A stretch of DNA of 64,000 nt. It comes from Paenibacillus sp. RUD330 (GTDB lineage Bacteria; Bacillota; Bacilli; Paenibacillales; Paenibacillaceae). The stretch covers positions 1,676,501-1,740,500 of the forward strand of contig NZ_CP022655.2 of the NCBI RefSeq assembly GCF_002243345.2, written 5' to 3'. Below, in pieces: positions 44,366 to 59,665 of the stretch (positions within the stretch are counted from its first letter, which is position 1; each line of letters starts with the position of its first letter). The notes below the pieces were generated by a model that was given only the letters and a program-made list of their open reading frames with translations, did no database searches and was not told the origin of the DNA. Position numbers and translations under genes: made by a program.

Positions 44366-44920
44366 ATGAAGACGGAAGCTTCCTCCTTTGCAGAACTCGA
44401 AACCCCAAGGCTTGCCCTTCGCAGGCTGCGTTCGTCGGATGCAGAGGATATGTACGCCTATTTCTCGCTCGATGAAGTGACGAAGTATTACAATCTGGAA
44501 TCGTTCACGGAGCTGGGCCAGGCGGAGGCGCTGATCAGCCGCTTCAATGAGAGGATCGACAGCGGCGCCGCCCTTCGCTGGGCTGTCACCCTCAAAGGCG
44601 AGGACCGGCTCATGGGAACATGCGGTTACCATAACTGGAGGCGGGATCACTGCCGCGCCGAGATCGGCTATGAGCTGCATCCCCGCTATTGGCAGCAGGG
44701 TTATATGACAGAGGCTGTGTCCGCCATGCTGGACTTCGGCTTCGGCGCGATGGGCTTGAACCGCGCGGAGGCGTTCATTGATCCGGACAATGCCGGCTCC
44801 CGCAGGCTGCTGGAGAAATGCGGCCTCAAGGAAGAAGGCTTGCTCAGAGATTATTTCTTCGAAAAAGGAATGTTTGTCGACGCGGCCGTCTTCTCCATGC
44901 TGAAGCGGGACCGCGCTTGA
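44366..44920 (+). CDS. GNAT N-acetyltransferase (RimJ/RimL type)
   Basis: 184 residues. LETPRLALRRLRSSDAEDMY, the acetyl-CoA binding strand and loop EIGYELHPRYWQQGYMTEA, and GLNRAEAFIDPDNAGSRRLLEKCGLKEEG are hallmarks of the RimJ/RimL-like acetyltransferase family. The acceptor could be a ribosomal protein N-terminus or a small molecule. It has its own promoter in an AT-rich gap after the exonuclease terminator. Confidence 0.9.
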   Translation: MKTEASSFAELETPRLALRRLRSSDAEDMYAYFSLDEVTKYYNLESFTELGQAEALISRFNERIDSGAALRWAVTLKGEDRLMGTCGYHNWRRDHCRAEIGYELHPRYWQQGYMTEAVSAMLDFGFGAMGLNRAEAFIDPDNAGSRRLLEKCGLKEEGLLRDYFFEKGMFVDAAVFSMLKRDRA

Positions 44921-45033
44921 ATGGAGCTTGGCGCCATGCATGAGCCGGCCAGGAGAAGTCTGGAGCAGGACAGGAACGAACCGGAAGAGCAGCGCAGAAC
45001 ATCGGCTAGGGATATGGAGGGAGGTGTCTGCAA

Positions 45034-45432
45034 GTGGGAGGACAGTTCGGTCCCAATCCGACTTTCACTTTCATGGACTCGTTCGGGCCTGTATTTATCG
45101 TCATCGTTTTTGTCATCTTAATCGGAAGCTTCGTCCTTGCCATCGGCAGGGGGCTGTTCACGTGGGGCAGCAACAACGCAGTCGAGATGCTCACGAACAG
45201 CTGCAAAGTCGTCGACAAGAGGACGAGAGCATCGGGCGGAGGCGTGGACTGCAGCGCGGACACCGCCTATTATGCTACCTTCGAATTCGCAGACGGCAGC
45301 CGTGTGGAGCTGAGAATGCCTGCGGACGAATACGGACTGGCCGTCGTCGGAGACGTCGGAGAGCTGACTTACCAGGGAACGAGGTACAAAGGCTTTGAAC
45401 GGCATGTCCGGGCTCCCGGCACGGGGAGCTGA
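45034..45432 (+). CDS. DUF2500-like membrane protein
   Basis: 132 residues from GTG 45034, chosen for GGAGGGAGGTG eight bases before it. One N-terminal membrane helix (VFIVIVFVILIGSFVLAI) and a soluble beta domain (CKVVDKRTRASGGG, YYATFEFADGSRVELRMP, GDVGELTYQGTRYKGFER) match DUF2500 proteins as I know them. Function unknown. It is convergent with the HD-fusion gene across a long hairpin. Confidence 0.72.
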   Translation: MGGQFGPNPTFTFMDSFGPVFIVIVFVILIGSFVLAIGRGLFTWGSNNAVEMLTNSCKVVDKRTRASGGGVDCSADTAYYATFEFADGSRVELRMPADEYGLAVVGDVGELTYQGTRYKGFERHVRAPGTGS

Positions 45433-45475
45433 TCTGCGGACCCGGTCGGGAAGGAAGCTTCCGGCCGATGCGCAA

Positions 45476-45524
45476 GCAGCCTGAATAGAGCAGCCGGGAA
45501 GTCCGGCGGCTCTATTCAGGCTGC
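45476..45524. terminator. Long hairpin between convergent genes
   Basis: GCAGCCTGAATAG at 45476-45488 pairs with its complement at 45512-45524, continuing inward through AGC/GCT and GCCGG/CCGGC with minor bulges. T runs are weak on both sides, so termination is likely but not certain. Confidence 0.6.
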
Positions 45525-45534
45525 GCATGTTCTC

Positions 45535-46770
45535 TTAACGACGGCCGTCCCATTCCCCGTAGAACTGCTCCAGGTAAGCCAGCATGAAGGCATGGCGCTC
45601 TGCGGCCAAGCGGCGGCCTGCCGCCGTGTTCATGCCGTCCTTCAGCTTCAGCAGCTTCTCATAAAAATGCGCGATCGCCGTTCCGTCGCGGCCGCGGTAT
45701 TCCTCGGGCGTCAGGGCAGCCCGCGGAGAGAAGCCGGGATCATGGATGGGCCTGCCTACGGCGCCGGAATAGGCGAACACGCGGGCGATGCCGACGGCTC
45801 CGATCGCGTCCAGCCTGTCCGCATCCTGGACAACCTGCCCCTCGAGGGTCGCCATGGGCGGCCTTCCGCCCCCCTTGTAGGATATCGTCGAAATGATTTC
45901 CAGGGTGGCGGCGACCGTACCTTCGTCGGCATGGATGCGTTCCAGCCATTCTTCGACCTCCCGTAGCCCGGCTTCCTCTCCGTCCCGCAGCTTGTCGTCC
46001 GCCAAGTCATGGAGCAGCGCCGCCAGCCGGCAGACGAAGCGGTTGGCTTGCTCCTCCAGTCCGATGACATCGGCCGTCCTGGCGACCCGGCTGATATGGA
46101 ACCAGTCGTGGCCGCTGAAGTCATGCTTCAGCTGCTCCCGCACATACGCCTCGGTCTTCTTCACCATTTTCTGCTTCTCAAGGCTTCCTTCAAGCCCCCA
46201 ATCCATCCCTGCCTCGACAATCGCCCGCAGCTCCCCGTCGCCTGCATCCGCCAGCTCCAGCAGCCGGGCATAAGGATCGCCGCTGAGACGGAAATGGCAA
46301 GCGAATGCCGGCTCCGTTTTCATGCCCTGCTCCTTGAGCCTTCGGATGGCCGAGCGCGCTTCGGCTCCGGACAGCTCCAGAAGCCTGGCTTCCGCGGCCA
46401 TATGGCGGCAGGCGTTTTGCCGGGCAGCCTCGCGAGGCTGCGCGAACAGCTCGACCGTCCAATCCTTCCAGCGGAAGGAAACGGCGACGGACGGCAGCTC
46501 TTGGGAGAGATGCCTCCGTGAAGAGTATCCGTCCATATGAGCGAAATTCGCTTCCGTGTCTCGAAGAAAACGATCCAGGTCGCCTGCTTCGCAGATGACA
46601 TCGAGATCGCTCGAGGGGATGTCCACGTCGATGGGAACCGTGCCGGCAAGCACGGGAGTATATGCCTCCAGAATGGCGAATAGATTCAGCTCGCGCAGCG
46701 CGGCAGCCGCCGAGCGCTGTGCCGGCGTTCCCGACGCCAGCCTGTCCAGGCTGTAATCGCTGATGTTCAT
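45535..46770 (-). CDS. DUF4269 (nucleotidyltransferase-like)-HD domain fusion protein
   Basis: 411 residues from ATG at 46768-46770 (GAGAGGGGAG before it). Residues 1-180 resemble DUF4269: LAGTVPIDVDIPSSDLDVICE has the G..P...D.D.S.D layout of nucleotidyltransferase folds, with VSFRWKDWTVELFAQ. Residues about 205-400 are an HD phosphohydrolase: HDWFHISRVAR, LAALLHDLADDK, and QDADRLDAIGAVGIARVF (YpgQ/YedJ type). The parts are usually separate proteins. A fused enzyme could add and remove or sense nucleotides, but the substrate is unknown. Confidence 0.82.
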   Translation of the reverse strand: MNISDYSLDRLASGTPAQRSAAAALRELNLFAILEAYTPVLAGTVPIDVDIPSSDLDVICEAGDLDRFLRDTEANFAHMDGYSSRRHLSQELPSVAVSFRWKDWTVELFAQPREAARQNACRHMAAEARLLELSGAEARSAIRRLKEQGMKTEPAFACHFRLSGDPYARLLELADAGDGELRAIVEAGMDWGLEGSLEKQKMVKKTEAYVREQLKHDFSGHDWFHISRVARTADVIGLEEQANRFVCRLAALLHDLADDKLRDGEEAGLREVEEWLERIHADEGTVAATLEIISTISYKGGGRPPMATLEGQVVQDADRLDAIGAVGIARVFAYSGAVGRPIHDPGFSPRAALTPEEYRGRDGTAIAHFYEKLLKLKDGMNTAAGRRLAAERHAFMLAYLEQFYGEWDGRR

Positions 46771-46903
46771 TGTCGCTCCCCTCTCCTGGCCTGCTGTAGA
46801 CGACGGTTCGAATGCCGAGACCGTCCCATTCAGCGGCAACATTCCATTCTATCACGGACACGGCGCTTCGGACAGGCTTGCAAGGCCGGCAGCCGGCATC
46901 TTA

Positions 46904-46912
46904 TGCTATAAT
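46904..46912 (+). promoter_or_regulatory. Extended -10 promoter
   Basis: TGCTATAAT, a consensus -10 with TGn extension, 33 bases before the start of the 165-residue gene. TTGCAA at 46878 is too far away to be its -35. Confidence 0.6.
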
Positions 46913-46944
46913 GCACAGTACAATCCCATTACCGGAGGTTTCAC

Positions 46945-47442
46945 ATGTTATCGTTCCAAGAAAAGCTAGACATCCTATCCTCGTTCCCGGAGCTGACGCG
47001 CAACGACGTGTCGATGGGACGGGTCAACTTCCACTTTGAAGGAAGCCAGCATGAGAAGAAAACCGTCGGATACCGGCTGCATCCGAACGGAAGCGGATAT
47101 ATATATGCCGGCCTGCTGAAGGGATACGATACCGACGACAAAGGGTATGCAAGCATCCGCGACCTGAACGAAGAGCAGCTGCGGGAGCTTGCGGCCGCTT
47201 CGATTGAGTCCTTGTCGGCGCCGCCGTCCGGACCTGCGCGCGAGCCCGGCCAAAGCAGGGCCGCCCGCAAGCGGCGCATGGCGAGAACGGCCTGGGTAAG
47301 CCCGGAGGGCGATGAGCTGGAGCTGAGGTGCGAGGACGATCTCTGGTATTTGTATGCCGGCCTGAGCCTGGAGATGGCCTTCGAGACGTTCGAGGAAGCC
47401 GAGGAATATTTGCAGGAAGAGGGCTTCCAGCCGAAGGCGTAG
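46945..47442 (+). CDS. Hypothetical protein with two-part basic-linked layout
   Basis: 165 residues, soluble. The N-terminal half (LTRNDVSMGRVNFHFEGS, KTVGYRLHPNGSGYIYAG, GYASIRDLNEEQLREL) and the C-terminal half (ARTAWVSPEGDELELRCED, LWYLYAGLSLEMAFETFEE) each contain a beta sheet with a YIYAG/LYAG strand, joined by a Pro/Arg-rich linker (about 90-112). An internal duplication is possible. TTACCGGAGG lies just before the ATG. No family recognised. Confidence 0.7.
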   Translation: MLSFQEKLDILSSFPELTRNDVSMGRVNFHFEGSQHEKKTVGYRLHPNGSGYIYAGLLKGYDTDDKGYASIRDLNEEQLRELAAASIESLSAPPSGPAREPGQSRAARKRRMARTAWVSPEGDELELRCEDDLWYLYAGLSLEMAFETFEEAEEYLQEEGFQPKA

Positions 47443-47535
47443 CATCAAAAGTCCAAATTCTTGTCGCCTGCCTCCATGGCTGTCAGTGCTCAGACGCCTT
47501 ATAGTTGGGAAAACGCTTCTGGAGGCGGAACCAAG

Positions 47536-48000
47536 ATGAATAGGACAAGCGATTCCATTACGGTCAGCCGATGCGATGCAGCCCATGCCGTCGCTCCGCT
47601 GTTCGACCAGTACCGGATCTTTTACGGCCAGCCTTCCGATGAGGAAGGGGCGCGCCTGTTCCTGCAGGCAAGGCTCGAGCGGGGAGAATCGGTCCTGTTC
47701 GCCGCAGCGGCGGAAGGCGTTCCGATCGGGTTCGCCCAGCTGTATCCGGTGTTTTCGTCGGTATCCATGAGGAGAGTGTGGATTCTGAACGACTTGTACG
47801 TGCATGCGGAATGGCGCGGGCGGGGGGCTGCCAAGCTGCTGCTGCAGGCGGTTCGGGACTACGCGGCTGCGGGAGAGGCCAGATCGGTCCAGCTCTCGAC
47901 CGCTGCGGACAATTCGGCGGCAAGATCTCTTTACGAACAGGCAGGGTATGAGCTCGACACGGTTTTTTTGACGTACGAGCTGTTGCTGGAGAAAGCTTAG
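47536..48000 (+). CDS. GNAT N-acetyltransferase
   Basis: 154 residues from ATG 47536 with GGAGG ten bases before it; the frame is open upstream but has no site. Typical GNAT elements are AEGVPIGFAQLYPVFS, the acetyl-CoA loop VHAEWRGRGAAKLLL, and ADNSAARSLYEQAGYELD. The substrate is unknown. A strong bidirectional terminator follows. Confidence 0.88.
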   Translation: MNRTSDSITVSRCDAAHAVAPLFDQYRIFYGQPSDEEGARLFLQARLERGESVLFAAAAEGVPIGFAQLYPVFSSVSMRRVWILNDLYVHAEWRGRGAAKLLLQAVRDYAAAGEARSVQLSTAADNSAARSLYEQAGYELDTVFLTYELLLEKA

Positions 48001-48047
48001 CTTGATTCAGATGCGAAATCGATGCTCCGTGCGGCAGGGCGGAGTCG

Positions 48048-48085
48048 AAAAAGGGAATCCGTGGACATCTCGGATTCCCTTTTTT
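48048..48085. terminator. Bidirectional intrinsic terminator
   Basis: AAAAAGGGAATCCG, nine-base loop, CGGATTCCCTTTTTT. Confidence 0.92.
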
Positions 48086-48345
48086 GCTTTATGCGGGTTC
48101 AGCCGCGATAAAGCCGGCTTCGCCGCCGGGTCGGGTTGAACGGACCGGAATATCCTGCAGGCATCCGCATTCAGGCATGCTGCGAGCTCCTTGATCATGA
48201 GAGCCGCATCGCTCGAGGAAGCGCCGGATTTTGCCGAGGCCTGCCTATTTTTTTGCGATCAGCTGTCCCATATGGAGTCAAAAGCCCAAGCATTCTGCAT
48301 ATAGTAGCGATAATGAAGCCGGGCAACAAGGAGTGGACAGAGGTT
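48086..48345 (+). promoter_or_regulatory. Leader of the giant repeat gene with mother-cell sigma -10-like box
   Basis: No gene seen here. GCATATAGTA (48297-48306) fits the CATANNNTA -10 of sigma-K/E promoters, 40 bases before the chosen ATG. No clear -35 is visible. AAGGAG at about 48328 is the ribosome site. Confidence 0.35.
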
Positions 48346-51300
48346 ATGGCGAACAGCAGAAAAGCGAAAAGGCCGAAGGCCAGAAAAGTGTTCTTCGTGG
48401 AAGATTCCTCGATATCGGAAATCAACTGGCTCGATGAGGCGGAGGAAGGCGAAGGCGAAAGCGGGGATACGGCGCAGATCAGCGGAAACAGCGGGCTCAT
48501 TCAGGAAGAAAAGGCTCAGAAAAGCGAGGGGGAGATCAGGGACAGCTCCGAAACGGCGGCGGTCAGCAGCGTCGAGGCTCCTCCTGCACCAGCTGATTCC
48601 ACGGAGGCTCTTCACTCGGAAGCGCTGGAGAAGCCGGAGACGGATCTGCCGGAGCAGGCGGGCCATCCGGAAGCGACGGAGAAGAGCGGGCATTCGGAGA
48701 AGGCAGGCCATCCGGAAATAACGGAGAAGAACGGGCAGTCGGAGAAGGCGGCGATCCCGGAGAAGGCCGATCTTTTGGAGAGCGCGCGCAAGCCCGGGGG
48801 CCCGGAGGGGACGGAACAGCCGGAGGCTCGGGCACAGACGAAGGAGGGGGCGCCCGCTCCTGCCGCCAGCGAGGAAACGGCCGCCTCAGCGGAGCGGCGG
48901 CTGGCCGAGCGGCGGAGAAGCGGAAGCTCGGCGCCGATCGTCTATGCCTCCGATCTGGCCGACGGTTCCGTGAGCGAAGCCAAGCTGGCGTCGGCGTCAG
49001 TGTCACGCAGCAAGCTGCAGCCGGGATCGGTAAGCTCGGAGGCTCTCGCGGACGGCGCCGTAGACAACGCCAAGCTCCGGGACGGAGCCGTCACATCGGA
49101 TAAAATCGCGGATAAGACGGTGCTGCGCGAGCATCTCGCTGATGGAGCCGTCTCCGGAGCGATCATCGCGGACGGAGGCATCTCCGGAGCCAAGCTCCGC
49201 TCCGGCAGCATCGGTTCCGACAAGCTGGCGAACCGCTCCATCATTGGCGACAAGATCGCCGAAGGAAGCCTGGAGGCGCGGCATTTGAAGGCGGGAGCCT
49301 TCTCTGGAGAGCTGCTGGCGGAATCGTCGATCCAGTCGATCCATTTTGCCTTGGAGTCCGTCGATACGCCCGCGCTGGCGAATGAAGCCGTGGACAACGC
49401 CAAGCTTGCGGCCGAATCCGTCACGGAGTCGAAGCTTCGAGACGGGGCGGTGACTTCAGCCAAGCTGGCTGAGGAGGCGGTGAACGCCTCCCATATCGCC
49501 CCTTCTTCCATCGAGGGCAGCCATCTGGCTCCGCAGAGCGTGGAGGGAGCCCATGTCGCCGACGCATCTCTGGAAGGAAGGCATCTGGCAGCGGGAGCCG
49601 TCGGCTCCAGGGAATTGGCGGATGAAGCGGTCGGCTCCAATGCGCTGGAGCCGAATGCGGTCGGTCCCGAGCATATCCAGCCTTTCGCCGTTGCCGGAGA
49701 CCATATCTCGCCGGGAGCGGTGTCGTCCGTTCATTTGGCGGATGCAGGCGTCGGCTCCGTGAACTTGCAGCCGGACTCGGTCACGACGATCAAGCTTGCC
49801 GACCACGCCGTCACGTCGTCCAAACTGGCGGACCAGAGCGTAAGCAAGGCCAAGATCGCGGATCAGGCGGTGTCCAGGAAACATCTGGCAGCCGATGCCG
49901 TGGACGGCTCCAAGCTTGCTTCCGGAAGCGTGTCGGAACGCCATCTGGCCGCTGAATCGGTCGCTTCTTTCCATGTGAAGGACGGCTCGATCCTCGAGGA
50001 GCATCTGGCGGACGATGCGGTGACGGAAGAGAAGATCGCCGGAAACAGCGTCGGAACCGGGCATCTGAAGGACGGCTCCGTAACGGCGAAGCAGCTCGGG
50101 AATGCTTCTGTCGTCCGGTCCAAGCTGGCCGAGGATTCCGTCGGATCGGAGCATCTGGCCGCGGAGAGCGTGCAAAGCCGCCATGTCTCCGACGACAGCA
50201 TCGGATTCAGCCATCTTGCGCCGGGCTCCGTCCGCGCCCGTCAGATCGGACCGTCGGCGGTGACGTCGGAGGCGGTTGGCGAAGCCCAGATCGCGGGAAG
50301 ACATCTGGCGGACCGAAGCGTCGACGCCAGGCATATCGCGCAAGGCTCGATCCGGACTGCGTCCCTTGCGGACGGCTCCGTGAGCCAGGCGAAGCTGGCC
50401 GACAGCTCGGTGAGCGGCCGTGCGCTGGCCGAAGGAGCCGTGACCGCAAGGCATTTGGCCGATTATATGGTGAACTCGCTGAAGCTGTCTCCGGAGTCGG
50501 TAACATCCGACAAGCTGACGGAGTTTTCCGTAACCGAATCCAAAATCGCGCCGGGAAGCGTGACCGAGTCGAAGCTGGCCGACAGCTCCGTAGGAAGCAG
50601 CCATTTGAAGACCTCCTCCGTCGGAGCCGACCATATCCAGGACGCATCCGTCGGCAGCGCTCACCTTCGCGCCGGGGCGGTAACATCCATTCATCTCGCA
50701 GGCGGCCTTATCGATTCGGATGCTCTGGCCGACCAGGCCGTGAAGGAAAGGCATTTGGAGTCGAACAGCGTCCATGCCAAAGCGATCGCCCCGGAAGCGG
50801 TGCAAAGCGTCCACATCGCCCAGGAAAGCATCCTCGGGCTGCACCTGACGCCGCAGCTCATCCGTCCTGTGCATCTGGCCCCGGAATCCATCCGCCAGGA
50901 GCATCTGGCTGCAGGAACGGTAGGGGAGGAACAGCTCCAGGCAGGAGCTGTCAGCTCCAGGGAGCTCAGGGAGCAGGCGGTCGAGTCGGCCCATATTTCC
51001 CCTGGCGCCGTCGCCTCCGAGCATTTGGAGCCGGGCAGCGTCAGACAGGAGCATCTTGCCCGACACTCGGCAGGAGAGCAGCAGATCGCTCCGGCAAGCA
51101 TCGACGCTTCCCATGTGAAGGAGGGCGCAATTCAGTCCGATCATATCAAAGGCGGCGCCGTGAGCGGCTTCCACGTCGGGCTGGAGACGCTGGCGGGCAA
51201 GCATCTCAAGCCGGCTTCGCTGCTCGGCTACCACATTTCGGCGGGAGCGATCGGAGCGGAGCAGCTGCATGAAGGCAGCGTGGAAGCCAGGCATCTTCGA

Positions 51301-54300
51301 GCCCGTTCCATCGGCTCCGCGCACTTGGCGGCAAGCAGCGTCGGCGGCGAGCATATCGCGCCTTCGAGCATCGGCAGCGGCCATCTGGCCACCGGCAGCG
51401 TGGGAAGCGGGCATATCGCGCCTTCGAGCATCGGCAGCGGCCAGCTGGCCGCAGACAGCGTAGGAAGCGAGCATATCGCGCCATCAAGCGTCGGCAGCGG
51501 GCAATTGGCAGCAGGCAGCGTCAATGGCGGGCATATCGCGCCTTCGAGCATCGAGAGCAGCCATTTGGCTGCGGACAGCGTGGAGAGCAGGCATATCGCC
51601 CGAGCCAGCGTGGACGGCGAGCATCTGGTCCAGGAGAGCATTACCGGAAACCTGATTGCGCGGCAAAGCATCACCGGCCGCAACTTGGCGCCGGGCAGCG
51701 TGGATTCGCTTCAGCTGGCGGAAAACAGCGTGACCGGCTTGCATTTGGCTTCCGGGAGCGTAAGCAGCGAGCATATCTCGCTGTCGAGCGTGGGCAGCGG
51801 GCAGCTTGCTGCCGGCAGCGTCGCCGGCGAGCATATCGCGCCGTCAAGCATCGGCAGCGAGCATATCGCGCCGCTCAGCATTGCGGGCAGCCAGCTTGCG
51901 CATCAAAGCGTCGCCGGCCGCCATTTGCTGCCGGGCAGCGTAAGCTCGGCTCAGCTGTCTGCGGGCAGCGTGAAGAGCGAGCATATCGCGGAGTCGAGTG
52001 TAGGAAGCCAGCAGCTGGCTGCAGAGAGCGTGAACAGCGAGCATATCGCGCTGTCGAGCGTAGGAAGCGAGCAGTTGGCCGCAGAGAGCGTGACGGCCGT
52101 GCATATCGCGCCGTCGAGCGTGGGAAGCAGGCAGCTGGCCGAAGGCAGCGTGAAGGGCGAGCATATCGCGCCGTCGAGCGTGAGCAGCGAGCAGATGGCC
52201 GAAGGCAGCGTGAAGGGCGAGCATATTGCGCCGTCGAGCGTGAGCAGCGAGCAGCTGGCTAAAGGCAGCGTGAAGGGCGAGCATATTGCGCCGTCGAGCG
52301 TGAGCAGCGAGCAGTTGGCTGAAGGCAGCGTGAAGGGCGAACATATCGCGCCGTCGAGCGTGAGCAGCGAGCAGCTGGCCGCAAGCAGCGTGAAGGGCGA
52401 GCATATCGCGCCGTCGAGCGTGAGCAGCGAGCAGCTGGCTGCAGGCAGTGTGAAGGGCGAGCATATCGCGCCATCAAGCGTGGGCAGCGAGCAGCTGGCC
52501 GAAGGCAGCGTGAAGGGCGGGCATATCGCGCCGTCGAGCGTGAGCAGCGAGCAGCTGGCCGAAGGCAGCGTGAAGGGCGAGCATATCGCGCCGTCGAGCG
52601 TGAGCAGCGAGCAGCTGGCCGAAGGCAGCGTGAAGGGCGAGCATATCGCGGCGTCAAGCGTGGGAAGTCAGCAGCTGGCCGAAGGCAGCGTGAAGGGCGA
52701 GCATATCGCGCCGTCGAGCGTGGGCAGCGAGCAGCTGGCCGCAGGCAGCGTGAAGGGCGAGCATATCGCGGCGTCGAGCGTGAGCAGCGAGCAGCTGGCC
52801 GCAGGCAGCGTGAAGGGCGAGCATATCGCGGCATCGAGCGTGAGCAGCGAGCAGCTGGCCGAAGGCAGCGTGACGGGCGAGCATATCGCGCCGTCGAGCG
52901 TGAGCAGCGAGCAGCTGGCTGCAGGCAGTGTGAAGGGCGAGCATATCGCGCCATCAAGCGTGGGCAGCGAGCAGCTGGCCGAAGGCAGCGTGAAGGGCGA
53001 GCATATCGCGGCATCGAGCGTGAGCAGCGAGCAGCTGGCCGAAGGCAGCGTGAAGGGCGGGCATATCGCGGCATCGAGCGTGAGCAGCGAGCAGCTGGCC
53101 GCAGGCAGCGTGAAGGGCGAGCATATCGCGCCGTCGAGCGTGAGCAGCGAGCAGCTGGCCGAAGGCAGCGTGAAGGGCGAGCATATCGCGCCATCGAGCA
53201 TATCGGGCAGCATGCTCTTGGAACAAAGCGTTGCCGGCCGCCACTTGGCTCCGAACAGCGTGAACTCGGTCCAGCTGGCGGAAGAGAGCGTGACCAGCGC
53301 GCATTTGGCTGCCGGCAGCGTGAGCGGAGACCATATTTTGCCGTCAAGCGTGGGAAGCGAGCATTTGGCGCCGGCCAGCATAACGAGCGAGCATATTGCG
53401 CCATCGGGCATAACCGGTCTTTTGCTCGCAGAGCAAAGCATAACAAGCCGTTTGCTGGCGCCTGGCAGTGTGAACTCCATTCAATTGGCGGAAGAGAGCG
53501 TGACCAGCGCGCATTTGGCTGCCGGCAGCGTGAGCGGAGACCACATTTTGCCTTCAAGCATAGGAAGCGGGCATTTGGCGCCGGCCAGCATAACGAGCGA
53601 GCATATTGCGCCATCGAGCATAACCGGCCTTTTGCTCGCAGAGCAAAGCATAACAAGCCGTCTGCTGGCGCCTGGCAGTGTGAATTCCATTCAATTGGCG
53701 GAAAAGAGCGTGACCCGCTCGCATTTGGCCTCAGGCAGTGTAGGCGGCGAGCAGCTCGCGGCAGGCAGTGTGACGAGCGAGCATTTTGCCCTTTCGAGCA
53801 TAAATGGAAGCTTGGTCCAGGAGCAAAGCATAACCGGCCGTCAATTGGCGCCAGGCAGCGTAAACGCCGTCCAATTGGCTGAGGAGAGCGTAACAAGCTT
53901 GCATTTGGCCGCCTGGAGCGTGAGCGGCGAGCATATTGCGCCGTCGAGCATAGGAAGTCAGCAGCTGGCCGCAGGCAGCGTGACGACGGAGCATATCGCG
54001 CGCTCTAGCGTAAGCGGCGAGCAATTGGCCGCAAGCAGCGTTACGAGCGACCACATCGCGCCGGCGAGCATCGGAAGCGGGCAGCTGGCCGCAGGCAGCG
54101 TGACGCTCGCGCATCTTGCGGCGGAAGTCCTCCGGCAGCTGACGCTTCCGGCTGTGCCGATTCCGGAGCCGGCTCCGTCGCATAGAAGCAGCGATCTCAA
54201 CCAGCAATTCGGGCTGACGGCCTTCGCTTTCGACGACCGGGACGATCAGCTTGAACTTGAAGTGGCCTTCAGCGAGCCGTTCGAGGATGCCTCCTATGCC

Positions 54301-54459
54301 CTTACCGCGAACGCGGACCATCCGTACTGCTACGCGGCGATCAAGGCCAAGGATCGGGACCGCGCCGTCCTTACGATCGTCCGTACCCGCATAGGTCCGG
54401 TGCCGGCCGGCAGCATCAACTGGATCGCAATCGGAAAAGGCCGAGAAAGCAACGAATAA
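48346..54459 (+). CDS. Giant decapeptide-repeat protein (WIAG-tail-like)
   Basis: 2037 residues from ATG 48346 (AAGGAG 12 bases before; ATG 48313 is an alternative). Residues 1-200: basic start MANSRKAKRPKARKVFFVED, then an acidic Glu/Ala/Pro region with degenerate GHPE/EKSGHSEKA repeats. Residues about 200-1928: roughly 170 ten-residue units of consensus GSVxSxHLAx, alternating with SSVxSEQLAx, so a 20-residue period. Residues 1929-2037: a beta-rich tail with AFSEPFEDASYALTANA and final INWIAIGKG. No signal peptide, sortase motif or membrane helix. I recall an NCBI family named for a WIAG tail on repeat proteins of Paenibacillus; I could not check this. The early repeats resemble the GSVTxAKLADGAV repeats of phage tail fibres. 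A fibrous surface, perhaps spore-surface, protein is my inference. Confidence 0.8.
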   Translation: MANSRKAKRPKARKVFFVEDSSISEINWLDEAEEGEGESGDTAQISGNSGLIQEEKAQKSEGEIRDSSETAAVSSVEAPPAPADSTEALHSEALEKPETDLPEQAGHPEATEKSGHSEKAGHPEITEKNGQSEKAAIPEKADLLESARKPGGPEGTEQPEARAQTKEGAPAPAASEETAASAERRLAERRRSGSSAPIVYASDLADGSVSEAKLASASVSRSKLQPGSVSSEALADGAVDNAKLRDGAVTSDKIADKTVLREHLADGAVSGAIIADGGISGAKLRSGSIGSDKLANRSIIGDKIAEGSLEARHLKAGAFSGELLAESSIQSIHFALESVDTPALANEAVDNAKLAAESVTESKLRDGAVTSAKLAEEAVNASHIAPSSIEGSHLAPQSVEGAHVADASLEGRHLAAGAVGSRELADEAVGSNALEPNAVGPEHIQPFAVAGDHISPGAVSSVHLADAGVGSVNLQPDSVTTIKLADHAVTSSKLADQSVSKAKIADQAVSRKHLAADAVDGSKLASGSVSERHLAAESVASFHVKDGSILEEHLADDAVTEEKIAGNSVGTGHLKDGSVTAKQLGNASVVRSKLAEDSVGSEHLAAESVQSRHVSDDSIGFSHLAPGSVRARQIGPSAVTSEAVGEAQIAGRHLADRSVDARHIAQGSIRTASLADGSVSQAKLADSSVSGRALAEGAVTARHLADYMVNSLKLSPESVTSDKLTEFSVTESKIAPGSVTESKLADSSVGSSHLKTSSVGADHIQDASVGSAHLRAGAVTSIHLAGGLIDSDALADQAVKERHLESNSVHAKAIAPEAVQSVHIAQESILGLHLTPQLIRPVHLAPESIRQEHLAAGTVGEEQLQAGAVSSRELREQAVESAHISPGAVASEHLEPGSVRQEHLARHSAGEQQIAPASIDASHVKEGAIQSDHIKGGAVSGFHVGLETLAGKHLKPASLLGYHISAGAIGAEQLHEGSVEARHLRARSIGSAHLAASSVGGEHIAPSSIGSGHLATGSVGSGHIAPSSIGSGQLAADSVGSEHIAPSSVGSGQLAAGSVNGGHIAPSSIESSHLAADSVESRHIARASVDGEHLVQESITGNLIARQSITGRNLAPGSVDSLQLAENSVTGLHLASGSVSSEHISLSSVGSGQLAAGSVAGEHIAPSSIGSEHIAPLSIAGSQLAHQSVAGRHLLPGSVSSAQLSAGSVKSEHIAESSVGSQQLAAESVNSEHIALSSVGSEQLAAESVTAVHIAPSSVGSRQLAEGSVKGEHIAPSSVSSEQMAEGSVKGEHIAPSSVSSEQLAKGSVKGEHIAPSSVSSEQLAEGSVKGEHIAPSSVSSEQLAASSVKGEHIAPSSVSSEQLAAGSVKGEHIAPSSVGSEQLAEGSVKGGHIAPSSVSSEQLAEGSVKGEHIAPSSVSSEQLAEGSVKGEHIAASSVGSQQLAEGSVKGEHIAPSSVGSEQLAAGSVKGEHIAASSVSSEQLAAGSVKGEHIAASSVSSEQLAEGSVTGEHIAPSSVSSEQLAAGSVKGEHIAPSSVGSEQLAEGSVKGEHIAASSVSSEQLAEGSVKGGHIAASSVSSEQLAAGSVKGEHIAPSSVSSEQLAEGSVKGEHIAPSSISGSMLLEQSVAGRHLAPNSVNSVQLAEESVTSAHLAAGSVSGDHILPSSVGSEHLAPASITSEHIAPSGITGLLLAEQSITSRLLAPGSVNSIQLAEESVTSAHLAAGSVSGDHILPSSIGSGHLAPASITSEHIAPSSITGLLLAEQSITSRLLAPGSVNSIQLAEKSVTRSHLASGSVGGEQLAAGSVTSEHFALSSINGSLVQEQSITGRQLAPGSVNAVQLAEESVTSLHLAAWSVSGEHIAPSSIGSQQLAAGSVTTEHIARSSVSGEQLAASSVTSDHIAPASIGSGQLAAGSVTLAHLAAEVLRQLTLPAVPIPEPAPSHRSSDLNQQFGLTAFAFDDRDDQLELEVAFSEPFEDASYALTANADHPYCYAAIKAKDRDRAVLTIVRTRIGPVPAGSINWIAIGKGRESNE
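51301..53220 (+). repeat. 60-bp tandem repeat core of the giant gene
   Basis: Period exactly 60 bases (20 residues, EGSVKGEHIAP then SSVSSEQLA). From about 52141 to 53200 some 18 consecutive units are nearly identical, and several differ by only one to three bases. The changes are mostly GAAGGC/GCAGGC, CCGTCG/GCGTCG or TGAGC/TGGGC. Units before 52141 are more diverged. Confidence 0.95.
53281..53730 (+). repeat. 210-bp higher-order repeat in the giant gene
   Basis: The block starting GAAGAGAGCGTGACCAGCGC at 53281 recurs at 53491, and a diverged start recurs at 53701. Each unit is 70 residues (seven decads). Conserved parts include SGDHILPSS and GLLLAEQSITSRLLAPGS. Confidence 0.9.
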
Positions 54460-54517
54460 CCTGCAAATGAAGAGGCTGTCGCCAGGCGGCCTTTTCTTTT
54501 GCCCTGAAATAGGCAGA

Positions 54518-54546
54518 TTTTGATTACAGCCCGAATTGTTTATAAT
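54518..54546 (+). promoter_or_regulatory. Candidate SigA promoter of the DUF445 gene
   Basis: TTTTGA (54518-54523), 17-base spacer, perfect TATAAT (54541-54546), 36 bases before the ATG. Confidence 0.6.
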
Positions 54547-54582
54547 CAAGGAGAACGTTTATTGTCGATCGGAGGAACAGGC

Positions 54583-55833
54583 ATGAAAACGAAGTATGCC
54601 GCAGGCACGTCCCTCGCCATCATGGCGGGCGGCTTTATATTGACGACGATTTTCACCAGCGAGCAGCACAACGCGCTGTCGCTGCTTCAAGGCGGCTTTG
54701 AAGCGGGGCTTGTCGGGGGAATCGCGGACTGGTTCGCAGTGACGGCGCTGTTCCGCCATCCTCTCGGGCTGCGGATTCCGCATACGAACCTCATCATCCG
54801 CAACAAGGACAAAATGGTCAACGCTCTCGTGTCGGCGCTGGAAAACGAGCTGCTCAACAAGGAAAGCATCAGCGCGCGGCTTCGCCGGCTCAATCTCATC
54901 GGGGGAGCGGGCCGGTTCATCGTGAAGCAGCTGGCCAAGCGGTCCAACCGGGAAGCGGTGATCGGCGCCGCGATGGCGGTTGTGGAGCGGCTGCCGCTTG
55001 AACGGCTGTCAGCGTCTGTGCGCAGCGGGCTCGCGGGTTATGCGAGAGGCATGGACCTACGACCGGCGGTGGAAGGAGCGGCATCGGCGATCATCCGCGA
55101 CGGTCTCGACGAGAAGGCGCTGGACTACGCGCTCGACCAGGCCGTCGACTGGGTAGCCAAGCCGTCTACCGGAAAAATGCTGGGGGAGATCGCTCAGAAG
55201 AAGCTGCAGGAGCTGCAGGTGGGCGGTTTCATGGGCTTTGCCGTCCAAGCGTTCGCTGGCTTCATGAACGAGGAGAAAATGGGTGCGATGCTTCAGCACA
55301 TGCTGCTGTCCGGCATCAAGGATCTCGGCACCCCGGGAAGCAGGCAGCGCGACAACCTGCTGCTGGAATTCCGCTCGCGAGTGATCGGAATTGCCGAGGA
55401 TGAAGAGAAGCTCGCCGCTGTCAAGGGCTGGCTCGAGGGCAAGGTCGATTCGGAAGAAGCGGAGGCGTTTTTCGTCGCCCGCCTGTCCGAGCTGAAGGCT
55501 TTCGTGCTGCAATGGCTGCAAAGGGACAAGGAAGAAGGCGGGCGAAGCCTCGTCCGCATCGCCCATGCAGCCAACGAGCGGCTGAAACGCGAGGAGGAGC
55601 TGGTCCGCAGCTGGGAGGAGCGCTTGTCGGCCGTCCTGGTGAGCACGATCGAGGCCAACCATTACCGGCTCGGATTGCTTGTCCGCGAAAACCTGAACAG
55701 CCTGGACAATAAGGCTCTGGTCGAGCTTCTGGAATCCAAGGTGGGAAGCGACTTGCAGTGGATCCGGGTAAACGGGGCGGTCTGCGGTTTCCTGGTGGGC
55801 ATTCTGCTGACATTGCTCGGCTGGGTCGTCTAG
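54583..55833 (+). CDS. DUF445 family membrane protein
   Basis: 416 residues from ATG 54583 behind GGAGGAAC. One membrane helix at each end (SLAIMAGGFILTTIF and VCGFLVGILLTLLGWVV), with a long helical soluble region between. The family motif GGFEAGLVGGIADWFAVTALFRHPLGL-IPHTNLI is present early, and the late segment GSDLQWIRVNGAVCGFLVG is characteristic. DUF445 (YheB/YjiN) proteins are of unknown function; both termini appear membrane anchored. Confidence 0.9.
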   Translation: MKTKYAAGTSLAIMAGGFILTTIFTSEQHNALSLLQGGFEAGLVGGIADWFAVTALFRHPLGLRIPHTNLIIRNKDKMVNALVSALENELLNKESISARLRRLNLIGGAGRFIVKQLAKRSNREAVIGAAMAVVERLPLERLSASVRSGLAGYARGMDLRPAVEGAASAIIRDGLDEKALDYALDQAVDWVAKPSTGKMLGEIAQKKLQELQVGGFMGFAVQAFAGFMNEEKMGAMLQHMLLSGIKDLGTPGSRQRDNLLLEFRSRVIGIAEDEEKLAAVKGWLEGKVDSEEAEAFFVARLSELKAFVLQWLQRDKEEGGRSLVRIAHAANERLKREEELVRSWEERLSAVLVSTIEANHYRLGLLVRENLNSLDNKALVELLESKVGSDLQWIRVNGAVCGFLVGILLTLLGWVV

Positions 55834-55911
55834 GCGCGCGAGCAAGCGAAAGTCAACAGGCACGCGGTTGATGGAGTAGGCATGATCTGATCAAGGAAAG
55901 CAAGAAGTCAT

Positions 55912-55957
55912 GAAAAAAAAGAAGCCGCCTTCCTTGAACAGGGAGGGCGGCTTCTTG
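55912..55957 (-). terminator. Terminator of the minus-strand 102-residue gene
   Basis: GAAGCCGCCTTCC and GGGAGGGCGGCTTC pair; on the minus strand the hairpin is followed by eight Ts (As at 55912-55919). The plus strand has no T run, so it serves the leftward gene. Confidence 0.85.
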
Positions 55958-56043
55958 CGCGCTCTATCACCGAAGCCGCGACGCGATTCGGGAAAAAGCA
56001 GACTGGAGAGGATTGCGGATCCTCATAAACAGCTCGGCGGACG

Positions 56044-56352
56044 CTACTTGTCCTCTTGGACAGCCCGGCTGTCGGCTCCGCTGCGGTCGTCGCCGGGATA
56101 ATCACGTTCCTTGCTGCCGTGCAGGGCGCGGTTTTCATAGCCGAAACGGTTCGGCTGCCTCTGCTCCGGCCGCCAAGGGGTGCTTTTTACCGGCTGCTCT
56201 TCATGGAGAACAGCTCCGTAAGGGCCTTCCGGAAACTCCTCGAACGTAAGGTCGTTGCGCTGCGACTCGACCGTGGATAGATCGGTGTATTTCTCTTGCC
56301 GCGATTCTTCTGTCGCGAAGTCGGTGTCGCCGCGCCGAATGTCGTTGTCCAT
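56044..56352 (-). CDS. Hydrophilic hypothetical protein (102 residues)
   Basis: MDNDIRRGDTDFATEESRQ onward: Asp/Glu/Arg/Gln-rich, no hydrophobic core, probably disordered. It contains LTFEEFPEGPYGAVL. It is supported as a gene by the strong terminator placed 87 bases after its stop on the same strand and by GAGAGGGG/GAAGG upstream. Family unknown to me. Such acidic proline-containing proteins occur in Bacillales as sporulation or stress proteins, but nothing here shows that. Confidence 0.65.
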   Translation of the reverse strand: MDNDIRRGDTDFATEESRQEKYTDLSTVESQRNDLTFEEFPEGPYGAVLHEEQPVKSTPWRPEQRQPNRFGYENRALHGSKERDYPGDDRSGADSRAVQEDK

Positions 56353-56426
56353 CCTTCGTACAGCCCCTCTCTGCTGCCGGGGGTCATGCTCCCCTGCGTG
56401 AAGGCAGCTGTACTAGCTTTTCCCAA

Positions 56427-56723
56427 TCAGTCGGTGAAATTCACTTCGCCGACGACCAGCGACAGGAAGCCGCCAAGCTCGGACGCTTCTTCCTCGTCCA
56501 GCTTGAACGTATGCTCCAGATAGCCTTCCTCCTCCAGGTCGTCCTGGCCGATGATGGCTGTCTTGCCGCTCTGCAGATCGGTGACGAGCTTTTTGCCGTA
56601 GAAGCGGTTGGTCGTCGTGACGGCCAGGTCGAAGCGCTTGAGGCCAGGCGTGATGAAGGTGACGAAACGAGTCGAGGTCTGCTCGGTCGAATCGGACATG
56701 AAATCATAATCTTTCAGCTGCAA
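56427..56723 (-). CDS. DUF3055 family protein
   Basis: 98 residues from TTG at 56721-56723, preferred over ATG 56699 because AAGGAGGT lies ten bases before the TTG. The sequence has RFVTFITPGLKRFDLAVTTTN, FYGKKLVTDLQSGKTAII and the acidic EEEGYLEHTFKLDEEEASEL, ending in FLSLVVGEVNF, as in the DUF3055 family of Firmicutes. Function unknown. It is divergent from the HRDC gene. Confidence 0.82.
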   Translation of the reverse strand: MQLKDYDFMSDSTEQTSTRFVTFITPGLKRFDLAVTTTNRFYGKKLVTDLQSGKTAIIGQDDLEEEGYLEHTFKLDEEEASELGGFLSLVVGEVNFTD

Positions 56724-56887
56724 GTGGATCCGTACCTCCTTCTCATCCGATGTAAAACGGGTCCGATCCAGTATAGCATGGATGCTGTGCTGCCGCCGCT
56801 CGCAAGGAGGATAAATAAGGCATTGCACAGATGCCGGGCCGTATGATAGGATGAATCTACCAGAACAAGAACCGAACGACCGGGAGG

Positions 56888-56933
56888 AAGCACCTCTCTT
56901 GCCTGCATTTGCGGGCGGGAGAGGTGCTTTTTT
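56888..56933 (+). terminator. Intrinsic terminator within the leader of the HRDC gene
   Basis: AAGCACCTCTC pairs perfectly with GAGAGGTGCTT and is followed by TTTTTT. It lies about 55 bases before the HRDC gene start and 40 bases after a possible promoter (TTGCAC 56823, TAGGAT 56847, spacer 18). No gene ends just upstream on this strand, so it would act as an attenuator or end a small RNA. Confidence 0.75.
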
Positions 56934-56988
56934 GCGTTTGCAGAATAGAGGCGTCTTGATCTGGACCACAATCGGAGGTGCGCGAAAA

Positions 56989-57999
56989 ATGCAGATCGTC
57001 TTTTTGAATTCATTCGAGAAACCGCTTGGAGACGGGAGAATCGACAACGCCCAGCTGTCCATCTGCGAGCAGCAGGGAACTTGGTCCGTCGTATGGAACG
57101 GAGCCCGGCACGGCAGCGCGGAGCCCTCATCCGTATGGTATGAGGGAAGCTCCTGGGAGGAGATGATCACCGCCTTCCGTCATGGCGTCGCGGTGCGGAT
57201 GGGCGAAGGATTCACGCCGCTCATCGACGGCATGCTGGACGAGCGGCCGGCCGGCAAGGGAGGAATCATTTCCATGCAGCAATGCTACGGAGAGCTTCAT
57301 GCCGACCACGAGCTGTTCGAGGCGCTACGCGACTGGAGGCGGATCAAGGCTTCCTCCGAGAAGAAATCGGCCTATCTCGTGGCGACGAACCGCACCTTGC
57401 TCATGATCAGTTCCTTTGTCCCGCATACGCTCGAGGAGCTCGCCCAGATTCCGGGATGGGGACCGGGCAAAAGCCGCGAATATGGAAAGGAGGTGCTGGA
57501 GCTTACGGGAGCGCGCGCTCAAGCAAGGGCTTTCCCTCTAAGCTGGGTGAGCGAGGCTCTCGAGCCGAAAGCCTATATCCAGTGGCTCTACAAGCAGAAG
57601 GAGACCAAATTCAAGAACAAGATGGACAGGCAGCAGTGCGGCCGTCTCATTCTGGAAGGAATCAATCAGGAGCGGACATTGGAGCAGCTGCTGGCGGATA
57701 CCGGCCTGCAGAGAAGGGAGCTCATGGAAAGGATCGAGCAGCTGGAACAGGAAGGCTATGATCTGGAGCCCTTGATCGCCAAGGAGCTGGAAGGAATATC
57801 GCAGGAGGAGCAGCAGCGCATCTGGGAAGCGCTGAAGGAGGAAGGGGACAAGTACCTGAAGCCGATCCTCCAAAAGGTTTATGGCGCGGAGCCGGCACCC
57901 TCGGCCAAGGTCGACCTGATCTATGACCGGCTTCGCCTGGTCCGGATGCGGTTCCGCCGCAGCGCCGCCGGCGGAGGCGGCAGCCTCGAAGCAATGTGA
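56989..57999 (+). CDS. HRDC domain-containing protein
   Basis: 336 residues from ATG 56989 with GGAGGTG nine bases before it. Residues about 100-175 form an HRDC domain (LFEALRDWRRIKASSEKKSA, LEELAQIPGWGPGKSREYG), the nucleic-acid-binding module of RecQ and RNase D. No helicase or nuclease domain is attached. The C-terminal half has winged-helix-like features (RTLEQLLADTGLQRRELMER) as in RecQ C-terminal Wrpase-type regions, and a basic tail. It may be a DNA/RNA-binding accessory protein. An intrinsic terminator in its leader suggests conditional expression. Confidence 0.8.
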   Translation: MQIVFLNSFEKPLGDGRIDNAQLSICEQQGTWSVVWNGARHGSAEPSSVWYEGSSWEEMITAFRHGVAVRMGEGFTPLIDGMLDERPAGKGGIISMQQCYGELHADHELFEALRDWRRIKASSEKKSAYLVATNRTLLMISSFVPHTLEELAQIPGWGPGKSREYGKEVLELTGARAQARAFPLSWVSEALEPKAYIQWLYKQKETKFKNKMDRQQCGRLILEGINQERTLEQLLADTGLQRRELMERIEQLEQEGYDLEPLIAKELEGISQEEQQRIWEALKEEGDKYLKPILQKVYGAEPAPSAKVDLIYDRLRLVRMRFRRSAAGGGGSLEAM

Positions 58000-58069
58000 C
58001 GCAAGCGCATGTCGTCAGGCTGGCGCTTGCCAGGCAGCCAAAGGAGGCAGAGGGCCGTCCATAGCCGAT

Positions 58070-59038
58070 TCAGAGAGTGCCCGGCGGGTCCCGGAACCAT
58101 TCCTCCAAGCGGCGCACGAGCGCCGTGCGCAGCTCCGCCTCGTGCCAGCCGAAATCCTCTGCGGCGGCTGCCGATTGTCTGGCCGCGACGGACAGCGCCG
58201 CTTCGCCGCGGAACGCGGAAGCCCTCAGCCAGCGGACGACGATCGCAAGCAGGCCGGCGGCCGGATCCACAAGGCCAAGATAAGCTTCCCATGCCTGTCC
58301 GGGCTCTCCGGACGAATGCGGAGTCGATGGACCGGCCGAATGCACGGAGTCCAGCCCGTCCCTGCGGACTCGCGAATAGGCTTCCGGGGCGATGAAGCGC
58401 GAGGCGATCATGCTCCTGAGACCCCGTGGATTCTGCAGATGCCTCAAGGCGGCCAGCATCCCGCGCATGCTCTTGTTCCAGTCGTCCTTTTTCACGTAAG
58501 GAGCAAGATCCGCATGATGGACGGCGATCATGCATTCATAATTTTCGATTACGGTTTCCGGCAGAGGACCGGCGGCTGCCTGAAGCATCCAGGCGTCGAG
58601 CCTGGCTTCGGCCTCCAGGCTCTCATGCCTGTCCAGCGTCTGGTCATCGAGGTTCAAGCTGCGCCTGACGGCTTCCTCCCCGTTGGGAGAGAGGCTTCCG
58701 TCGGGCTGCATGGCGGCATCGAGCAGCAGATGGAGGATGAAGCCGAGCGTGTAGACGACGGCCTCGTCAGCATCCGAGCCATCGCGGGGACATCCGGAGA
58801 CACCGTCGAGCAGATCCAGCAGCATCGGCAAGGGATCCTGCCGGTGAAGCCGGTCGGCCAGCACGTTCATGAGAGATCGTTTGGGCCACGGCATCAGCCG
58901 GCGGCAATAAAGAAAATCCGGACCGAGGCATCCCAGGACGAAGCATCTTTCCAACTCCGGCGAAGACAGCAGGCGCTGCTCCCCGGACTGCTCAAGCACC
59001 ATTCGGCCGAATCGGATATGGGTCCATATACCAGGCAT
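58070..59038 (-). CDS. Zinc-dependent phospholipase C-like protein with altered metal site
   Basis: 322 residues. The N-terminus GIWTHIRFGRMVLEQSG, then FVLGCLGPDFLYCRR and YTLGFILHLLLDAAMQP, follow the ZnDPC/phospholipase C fold, with G(C/A)xxPDf and H...D motifs. The usual final metal His after the HxxxDxxxH segment is Gln (AMQP), so zinc binding may be incomplete. There is no signal peptide, so it is cytoplasmic, as for many Firmicute relatives of unknown activity. Divergent from cheX. Confidence 0.78.
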   Translation of the reverse strand: MPGIWTHIRFGRMVLEQSGEQRLLSSPELERCFVLGCLGPDFLYCRRLMPWPKRSLMNVLADRLHRQDPLPMLLDLLDGVSGCPRDGSDADEAVVYTLGFILHLLLDAAMQPDGSLSPNGEEAVRRSLNLDDQTLDRHESLEAEARLDAWMLQAAAGPLPETVIENYECMIAVHHADLAPYVKKDDWNKSMRGMLAALRHLQNPRGLRSMIASRFIAPEAYSRVRRDGLDSVHSAGPSTPHSSGEPGQAWEAYLGLVDPAAGLLAIVVRWLRASAFRGEAALSVAARQSAAAAEDFGWHEAELRTALVRRLEEWFRDPPGTL

Positions 59039-59111
59039 GAGCGATCCTCCGCCTTTCCAAAATTAGAACCTTGCTCACCTTGACGTTATAGGTCTTTAGT
59101 AGCGTTAATGG

Positions 59112-59163
59112 TTATATTGGTATACTTGCACTAGTTATTTTAGTATAATTGCTACCAATATAA
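59112..59163. promoter_or_regulatory. 11-bp inverted repeat flanking the cheX promoter region
   Basis: TTATATTGGTA (59112-59122) and TACCAATATAA (59153-59163) are exact complements separated by 30 bases. The space holds TATAAT (59144-59149). The block is AT-rich and lies between divergent genes. It could be an operator pair or an mRNA stem in the cheX leader. Confidence 0.55.
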
Positions 59164-59203
59164 GGTTGACGTGAAACTTGGTCTATAAGGAGCTTAAGTG
59201 CCG

Positions 59204-59665
59204 ATGAGAGCCGAATTTATCAATCCGTTCCTGGAGTCCGCAGTCATGGTATTGGAGCAGGTCGTCCAGATCAAACCCATGCCTGGGCCAATTGGCCTGA
59301 AGGTGCTGAGCGGCGCCAACGATTTTTTATGGATTCGAATTCAATTGATCGGTCAAGTAAGCGGAGACATCATGTTCGGCATGAGCGAGGTGGATGCCTT
59401 GAATATCGTTTCGGCGATGATGGGCGGTTTCCAGGTCGACGCGCTGGACGAGATCGGCCGCAGCGCCATATCGGAACTGAGCAATATGATCAGCGGCAAC
59501 GCCAGCACGAAGCTGTCGAGCCAGGGAGTGCATGTCGATATTACCCCTCCGGCGCTGCTGCAGGGAGCGGAGCTTGATTTCCTGGAAAGGCGCCAGGCGC
59601 TGTCCGTGCCTCTCATTCTCGAAGGAATCGGCCAGCTGGACATCCAGGTATTACTTGCATCGTAA
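59204..59665 (+). CDS. cheX: CheX-family chemotaxis phosphatase
   Basis: 153 residues from ATG 59204 (GTG 59198 two codons earlier is possible; AAGGAG upstream serves both). The start MRAEFINPFLESAVMVL is typical. The active-site helix has the ExxN motif in SELSNMISGNASTKLS, with DIMFGMSEVDALNIVSAMMGG before it and DITPPALLQG after. CheX dephosphorylates CheY-P or related receivers. No other chemotaxis gene is in the window. Confidence 0.9.
   Translation: MRAEFINPFLESAVMVLEQVVQIKPMPGPIGLKVLSGANDFLWIRIQLIGQVSGDIMFGMSEVDALNIVSAMMGGFQVDALDEIGRSAISELSNMISGNASTKLSSQGVHVDITPPALLQGAELDFLERRQALSVPLILEGIGQLDIQVLLAS

Follow-up and report, generated by a model that had tools for sequence, protein, structure and literature searches.

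What is the role of a bacterial protein of 2037 residues in which a single ten-residue unit is repeated almost from end to end? The gene in question lies at positions 48346-54459 of a 64,000-nucleotide stretch of Paenibacillus sp. RUD330 (contig NZ_CP022655.2, positions 1,676,501 to 1,740,500), which we call the window; the host genome measures 5.57 Mb, and the nearest named relative is P. humicus (91% identity over a 96-residue query). The original prediction, made from the sequence alone, had seen in it a long fibre on the spore or in its coat, and the open reading frame was found as described there. We established the family, the anatomy, the folds by model, the conservation and the gene context of the protein. 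It belongs to a family that is widespread in spore-forming Bacilli and functionally undescribed, and it is most likely a spore-surface fibre, which would be made by the mother cell, be oligomeric and probably be glycosylated. The features of the gene are the following, all on the forward strand.

48346..54459, forward: WIAG-tail gene, proposed fibre (ATG at 48346, stop ending at 54459; 2037 amino acids)
48298..48306, forward: promoter-like -10 element CATATAGTA, fitting CATAnnnTA, 48 nt before the start codon
48346..48441, forward: residues 1-32, basic stretch and family motif ending in SEINWLDE, proposed anchor
48400..48963, forward: residues 19-206, acidic variable linker, which takes in the end of the motif
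48964..54153, forward: residues 207-1936, 173 decads, proposed fibre shaft
51964..53199, forward: 60-bp tandem array, 20.6 copies with 91% matches, recently expanded part of the shaft
54202..54438, forward: residues 1953-2031, proposed tip: WIAG-tail domain with a lectin/pyocin-foot fold by model

Family and link to sporulation

The last 80 residues match the NCBIfam model WIAG-tail (NF012201) with 96.4 bits, where the curated cut-off is 33, and with 103.2 bits in a second profile search. The separate C-terminal domain that had been noticed before is thereby identified, and the gene can no longer be called the least explained of the window, since its tail is a curated NCBI domain of a family common in Bacilli. 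Of 59 genomes, 52 carry the domain (RUD330 is one of them), with 60 genes listed; 41 of the 60 listed genes of the order Paenibacillales were examined in detail. Across a sample of 299 genomes of the class Bacilli, 79 have a WIAG match (78 above the cut-off) and 211 a match to SpoIVA (208 above the cut-off). SpoIVA occurs in all 79 WIAG genomes and in 132 of the 220 genomes without WIAG. Moreover, two genomes of one genus (g7) of the same taxonomic family lack both.

No paper on the function of WIAG-tail was found in the PMC literature searched, where the sole mention is the annotation of a tail fibre of an algal virus as WIAG-tail (PMC12085832; papers given by PMC number are cited from excerpts). 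Among the papers listed on the spore surface of Paenibacillus and Brevibacillus, none names the family in its title or abstract, and no mention of 9EG4 was found in the literature searched. CpbA was considered and set aside, as its GST fusion of 54 kDa is too small for a long WIAG member (PMC5335551).

The upstream regions carry further evidence. Among the 41 Paenibacillales genes, CATAnnnT stands 30-61 nt before an in-frame start in 40, compared with 73 of the 336 other conserved open reading frames from the same loci, which served as the control set. With a preceding G the element is found in 38 of the WIAG genes and 32 of the controls, and with AC 17 nt upstream in 19 and 9, respectively. 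The aligned upstream consensus of the family reads GTGAC-N17-CATATGATG. The SigK promoter of bclA from B. thuringiensis reads CAC-N16-CATATGTTA (PMC4750369), and in a B. subtilis SigK motif a gap of 14-16 nt separates a 5-nt -35 from a 10-nt -10 element (PMC517825). The CATAnnnT element of the WIAG genes in this order may thus belong to a promoter of the sigma-K type, as used in the mother cell. An in-frame TTG at 48136 would lengthen the protein to 2107 residues; as it lies 5' of the promoter-like element at 48298, it was not taken as the start.

In the 20 loci from outside the order (L092-L111) a different conserved form was seen, mostly tgAATAT followed by TA, in which the first base of the -10 element has changed from C to A. 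The pattern [TC]G[AC]ATAT occurs within 100 nt upstream in 19 of these loci (0.7 after shuffling; 13 of 235 control reading frames), and the longer G[AC]ATATnn(n)TA in 17 (0.35 after shuffling; 2 of 235). For L104, whose start is uncertain, the searched stretch was lengthened downstream.

N-terminal region, shaft and tip

The original prediction gave the protein an acidic N-terminus, which holds for residues 19-200 (41 D/E, 18 K/R) and fails for the first 18, which are basic (7 K/R, no D/E). The consensus of the motif that follows, derived from 26 aligned members, is VDNPNxSELxWLDE. Most of the proteins examined from Paenibacillales, short ones too, start with a basic stretch and a sequence near this motif, while some have only a weak form of it (e.g. 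L040, L042 and L059). A profile of the anchor motif gave 20 hits with E <1e-4 in 21 genomes, of which 19 lie within WIAG reading frames. In the genome of the remaining one (G003:C56), a contig end interrupts the long WIAG gene; the hit, on a second contig, is therefore probably the front half of that gene. Outside Paenibacillales the motif is altered, and most of the N-termini inspected by eye still show a recognisable first decad (approximately YTDDLTDxAVT). The acidic linker, likewise judged by eye, varies widely among relatives. No export signal was seen on inspection by eye, in line with the original prediction.

Residues 207-1936 consist of 173 ten-residue repeats in a single register with zero indels; the array had been put at about 170 repeats and called almost unbroken, and only its proposed bounds (200-1928) had to be moved. 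Within the first 171 units, Ser stands at position 2 in 134, V/I/L at position 3 in 169, His at position 7 in 89, L/I/V/F/M at position 8 in all 171 and Ala at position 9 in 130. The last decad, EVLRQLTLPA, is probably a cap. Ser and Thr account for 365 of the 1730 shaft residues. The 60-bp tandem array at 51964-53199 points to recent duplication of decad pairs there. The P. humicus contig holds just the last 373 codons of the gene; in comparison with these, the array shows a 40-residue gap, equal to four whole decads. Between the two genes dN/dS was 0.23 for the tail (113 codons) and 0.33 for the aligned decads (272 codons), the value for the decads being less certain as the repeat alignment may not pair true counterparts. 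Under a lenient pattern, decad arrays were counted in 35 of the 41 examined family genes, in gap-free runs of 53 to 249 units, and six genes have none. Judged by eye, decads and tail are probably separated by a long coiled coil in a relative of the same genus (L053, residues 800-1170), and by a shorter coiled-coil-like stretch in L056.

The likeness of the repeats to phage tail fibres, which had been noted before, is borne out by sequence and by model, and extends to the tip. The tail-fibre family phrog_892 is matched by 28 of 34 members, and in the protein from the window the match spans the decads. A 160-residue segment of this protein gave 333 matches in 50,697 phage records, 246 of them from Mycobacterium and all below 60% identity. 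AlphaFold models of repeat segments have one three-residue helical turn per decad and zero strands. The best of them is regular (mean pLDDT 85.9, pTM 0.54), not globular or disordered, the outcome that had been named as speaking against a fibre. Twelve viral predicted models are similar to the repeat model at E 0.001 or better: eight are from named phages (three called tail fibre), three are nameless and the top one is an iridovirus protein. The repeat profile also matches the cyanophage fibre gp28.

The tail model is confident (pLDDT 96-98). In structure comparisons it has the fold seen both in the tips of R-pyocins and phage tailspikes and in H-type lectins, whose beta-sandwich it adopts. 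The 34 members gave no match to Pfam H_lectin at E 0.1. A TNF-like fold is absent from the list of structural matches of the tail model (VIA list), which excludes nothing. At the sequence level, the tail from the window has no match in the phage records at E 0.01, and the tail of a relative reached a best E of 0.3; a search of viral contigs with the tail as a single sequence, in which only close relatives are detectable, found nothing. That the protein is a fibre is supported by the resemblance of its repeats and tip to phage fibres and tailspikes, in sequence and in model.

Neighbouring genes and glycosylation

Sugar-transfer genes are frequent next to the family genes. The counts over the 41 Paenibacillales loci are lower bounds, because in many loci the downstream sequence ends after about 6 kb. 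A GT4 glycosyltransferase is found near the WIAG gene in 18 loci, four kinds of GT2 in 17, 13, 12 and 13, an RmlA-like nucleotidyltransferase in 21, an RmlB-like protein in 7, a GT-D enzyme in 10, a CgeB-like protein in 6 and a YheC/D ATP-grasp protein in 12. At least one sugar gene is present in 29 of the loci, and at least three kinds in 20. Of the 20 loci from outside Paenibacillales, 6 contain sugar genes and 11 a YheC/D gene. The genome of RUD330 itself holds a second, short WIAG gene about 46 kb away (L068, 9340-10146), whose product of 268 residues has the anchor motif and the tail, and no decads; it adjoins GT2, NTP transferase, CgeB-like and GT4 genes. Seven other listed genomes of the genus have two WIAG matches each, the short one having been read only in L069 and L070.

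Different glycosyltransferases of the WIAG clusters have in common an N-terminal tag of the approximate form GYxxGYxxGxxxG, often behind a basic stretch. It was seen in 11 of 13 GT2d, 7 of 11 CgeB-like and 5 of 10 GT-D proteins (one GT-D probably being spurious), in loci L034, L035, L041, L045, L046, L048, L060 and L062. It is perhaps a common targeting tag. Matches in GT2a and GT2b were excluded, as they fall on a GHDVGRSIG-like segment of the enzyme itself. Small conserved proteins are also encoded near WIAG genes (L033 793-1826, L046 1681-2859 and L045 19077-19738; kinds in 8, 6 and 5 of the 41 loci). For the two L045 proteins that were searched, neither NCBIfam nor Pfam gave a match, and for the one from L033 Pfam gave none; two of the small-protein genes carry C-N17-G-CATAnnnT as well.

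In the window, the gene is flanked by genes for acetyltransferases, DUF2500, DUF4269/HD, DUF445, HRDC and CheX proteins, or for proteins without a match. Ten neighbours in 44366-59665 were compared with PHROGs; no structural family was found, and three belong to acetyltransferase or unknown families. The neighbours of relatives were checked for phage genes only by clustering and by eye. A consensus scan of both strands gave three terminator-like hairpins in the whole stretch (0.6 expected), and two lie behind the gene:

54478..54517, forward: terminator-like hairpins 3' of the gene (54478-54490 and 54498-54517), from the consensus scan only

An Rfam scan of the window at gathering thresholds gave no match. 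Matches to HNH_5, Methyltrn_RNA_2, DotG and PipB stayed under the cut-offs, are probably caused by the composition of the repeats, and were discarded. A minus-strand reading frame of 672 codons lies within the decad array (49456-51474); long minus-strand frames there were taken as by-products of the codon usage of the repeats.

Proposed role and alternatives

We propose the following picture. The promoter element and the restriction to sporulators suggest that the mother cell would transcribe the gene at a late stage of sporulation. The basic N-terminal segment and the SEL-WLDE motif, by their conservation, are candidates for anchoring the fibre to an outer spore layer. The 173 decads would form a long, stiff shaft of the phage-fibre type, probably a rod of three chains. 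The WIAG domain would be the exposed tip; from its modelled fold, it probably helps the chains to trimerise and may bind glycans, the latter being held less firmly than the spore-surface fibre as such. Given the gene linkage in relatives and the surroundings of the short paralogue, the shaft would probably be glycosylated by enzymes encoded beside the family genes. The fibre would then act like BclA of the Bacillus cereus exosporium, made from unrelated parts. The spore link of the original prediction thus gains indirect backing, through SpoIVA, the mother-cell-type element of the order and the sugar-transfer, CgeB-like and YheC/D genes of relatives.

Several observations weigh against this reading. 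The gene in the window lacks the -35 AC 17 nt upstream of CATATAGTA, and the stretch examined around it is free of sugar-transfer genes. In the 20 loci outside the order, CATAnnnT was found in 3, which is chance level, and within 200 nt in 4 (4.6 expected by shuffling), and the variant pattern reported for these loci was chosen post hoc, after viewing the sequences. The anchor profile has no hit in some WIAG genomes, e.g. G012 and G038. Of seven relatives that lack WIAG, six have SpoIVA, which means that sporulation does not require the protein, and the association of WIAG with SpoIVA (Fisher p 6e-15) comes from a test that ignores kinship. The five repeat models differ in mean pLDDT (64.8-85.9, the four others at 64.8-77.3; pTM 0.54), and Foldseek matches the repeat model to no solved structure in the PDB. 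All models are single chains and cannot show the oligomeric state; that the fibre is a homo-oligomer is what we infer.

A protein of the inner coat or a morphogenetic scaffold, with the repeats as a flexible or cross-linked matrix and no exposed filament, is compatible with all the spore evidence as well, and the His at decad position 7 could bind metal or be cross-linked. A tip fold shared with lectins and phage tips, together with the linkage to sugar transfer, better suits the surface, and we regard an inner location as unlikely.

Pentapeptide repeat proteins consist of A(D/N)LxX repeats that form a right-handed quadrilateral beta-helix. Two five-residue units per decad could give a monomer of this kind; there is a weak profile match to HetL, the single-sequence PDB search has a designed pentapeptide protein at its top (E 0.0012), and several such proteins stand just below the phage proteins that head the search with the family profile. 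The strandless models with their short helical turns, and the failure of Foldseek to find any of the pentapeptide proteins that the PDB holds, argue against it, and we think it improbable. For the shaft, no solved structure matches, pentapeptide proteins rank as high in the single-sequence search, and the authors of the gp28 work state that they did not resolve its distal fibre (PMC10575957); the rod of three chains is accordingly a proposal.

That the protein belongs to the vegetative surface or the cytoplasm, its tie to sporulation being a by-product of ancestry, draws on the lack of a kinship correction; the promoter element, the joint absence of WIAG and SpoIVA in genus g7 and the YheC/D and CgeB-like neighbours in relatives make this very unlikely. 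Least probable of all is a prophage remnant or cargo, with a tail fibre gene that stayed behind in the chromosome or serves a phage or tailocin, as the phage-like shaft and tip and the annotated algal virus might suggest, because the tail is unmatched in phage records and (for close relatives) viral contigs, the family occurs in 52 of 59 genomes and has conserved chromosomal neighbours and a promoter element of its own, and the neighbours here carry Pfam domains of the housekeeping type and no phage structural family.

Comparison with known systems

What spores adhere to depends on their surface filaments, and to our knowledge few building blocks of spore filaments are known beyond the collagen-like BclA proteins and Ena fibres. 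Our data turn a curated family of undescribed function, present in 79 of the 299 sampled Bacilli genomes and always together with SpoIVA, into a direct candidate for such a filament, with a stated anatomy, a promoter element and sugar-transfer partners. WIAG proteins would also supply an abundant natural source of the phage-fibre decad for structural work. More tentatively, and with rather less than even confidence, we suggest a second, class-wide spore nap in Bacilli: giant, glycosylated, probably trimeric fibres built from phage tail-fibre modules, with the decad number setting the length and lectin-fold tips binding glycans of soil, plants or insects.

The protein is a member of NF012201 by profile. 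That model covers only the 80-residue tail. To the domain already named by NCBI we add the anchor motif, the shaft, the promoter element and the gene context, and we propose a BclA-like function built from phage-fibre parts.

The tip of the R1 pyocin fibre (6cxb), LKA1 gp49 (4ru4) and AP22 gp53 (4mtm) has its fold in common with the WIAG tail, and phage tail fibres share the decad shaft. Unlike phage and R-pyocin fibres, WIAG proteins have their own N-terminal motif, and the gene in the window stands in a chromosomal setting without phage structural genes. The H-type lectins (Helix pomatia agglutinin, SLL-2 and the C-terminal domain of discoidin) differ in that the members have no H_lectin match in Pfam. 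An F-Ena filament is composed of many small subunit copies, whereas the WIAG fibre would be one giant repeat chain. F-Ena endospore appendages, reported from Paenibacillus too, are spore filaments with DUF4183 subunits (PMC11952670).

In its proposed layout the fibre is analogous to BclA. The exosporium leader TIGR03720 had no match in the 299 genomes and likewise none in the controls. The tip of BclA is a TNF-like jelly roll, unlike the H-type lectin/pyocin-foot fold modelled for the WIAG tip, and some WIAG loci carry rhamnose-type sugar genes like those of the BclA set. BclA has an N-terminal attachment region, a long, glycosylated, repetitive middle, a C-terminal beta domain that promotes trimers and a CATA-type SigK promoter (PMC4750369). 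We propose the same layout of N-terminal attachment, repetitive middle, C-terminal beta domain and CATA-type promoter for the WIAG fibre, in which decads, with no collagen family matched, take the place of the Gly-X-Y collagen of BclA.

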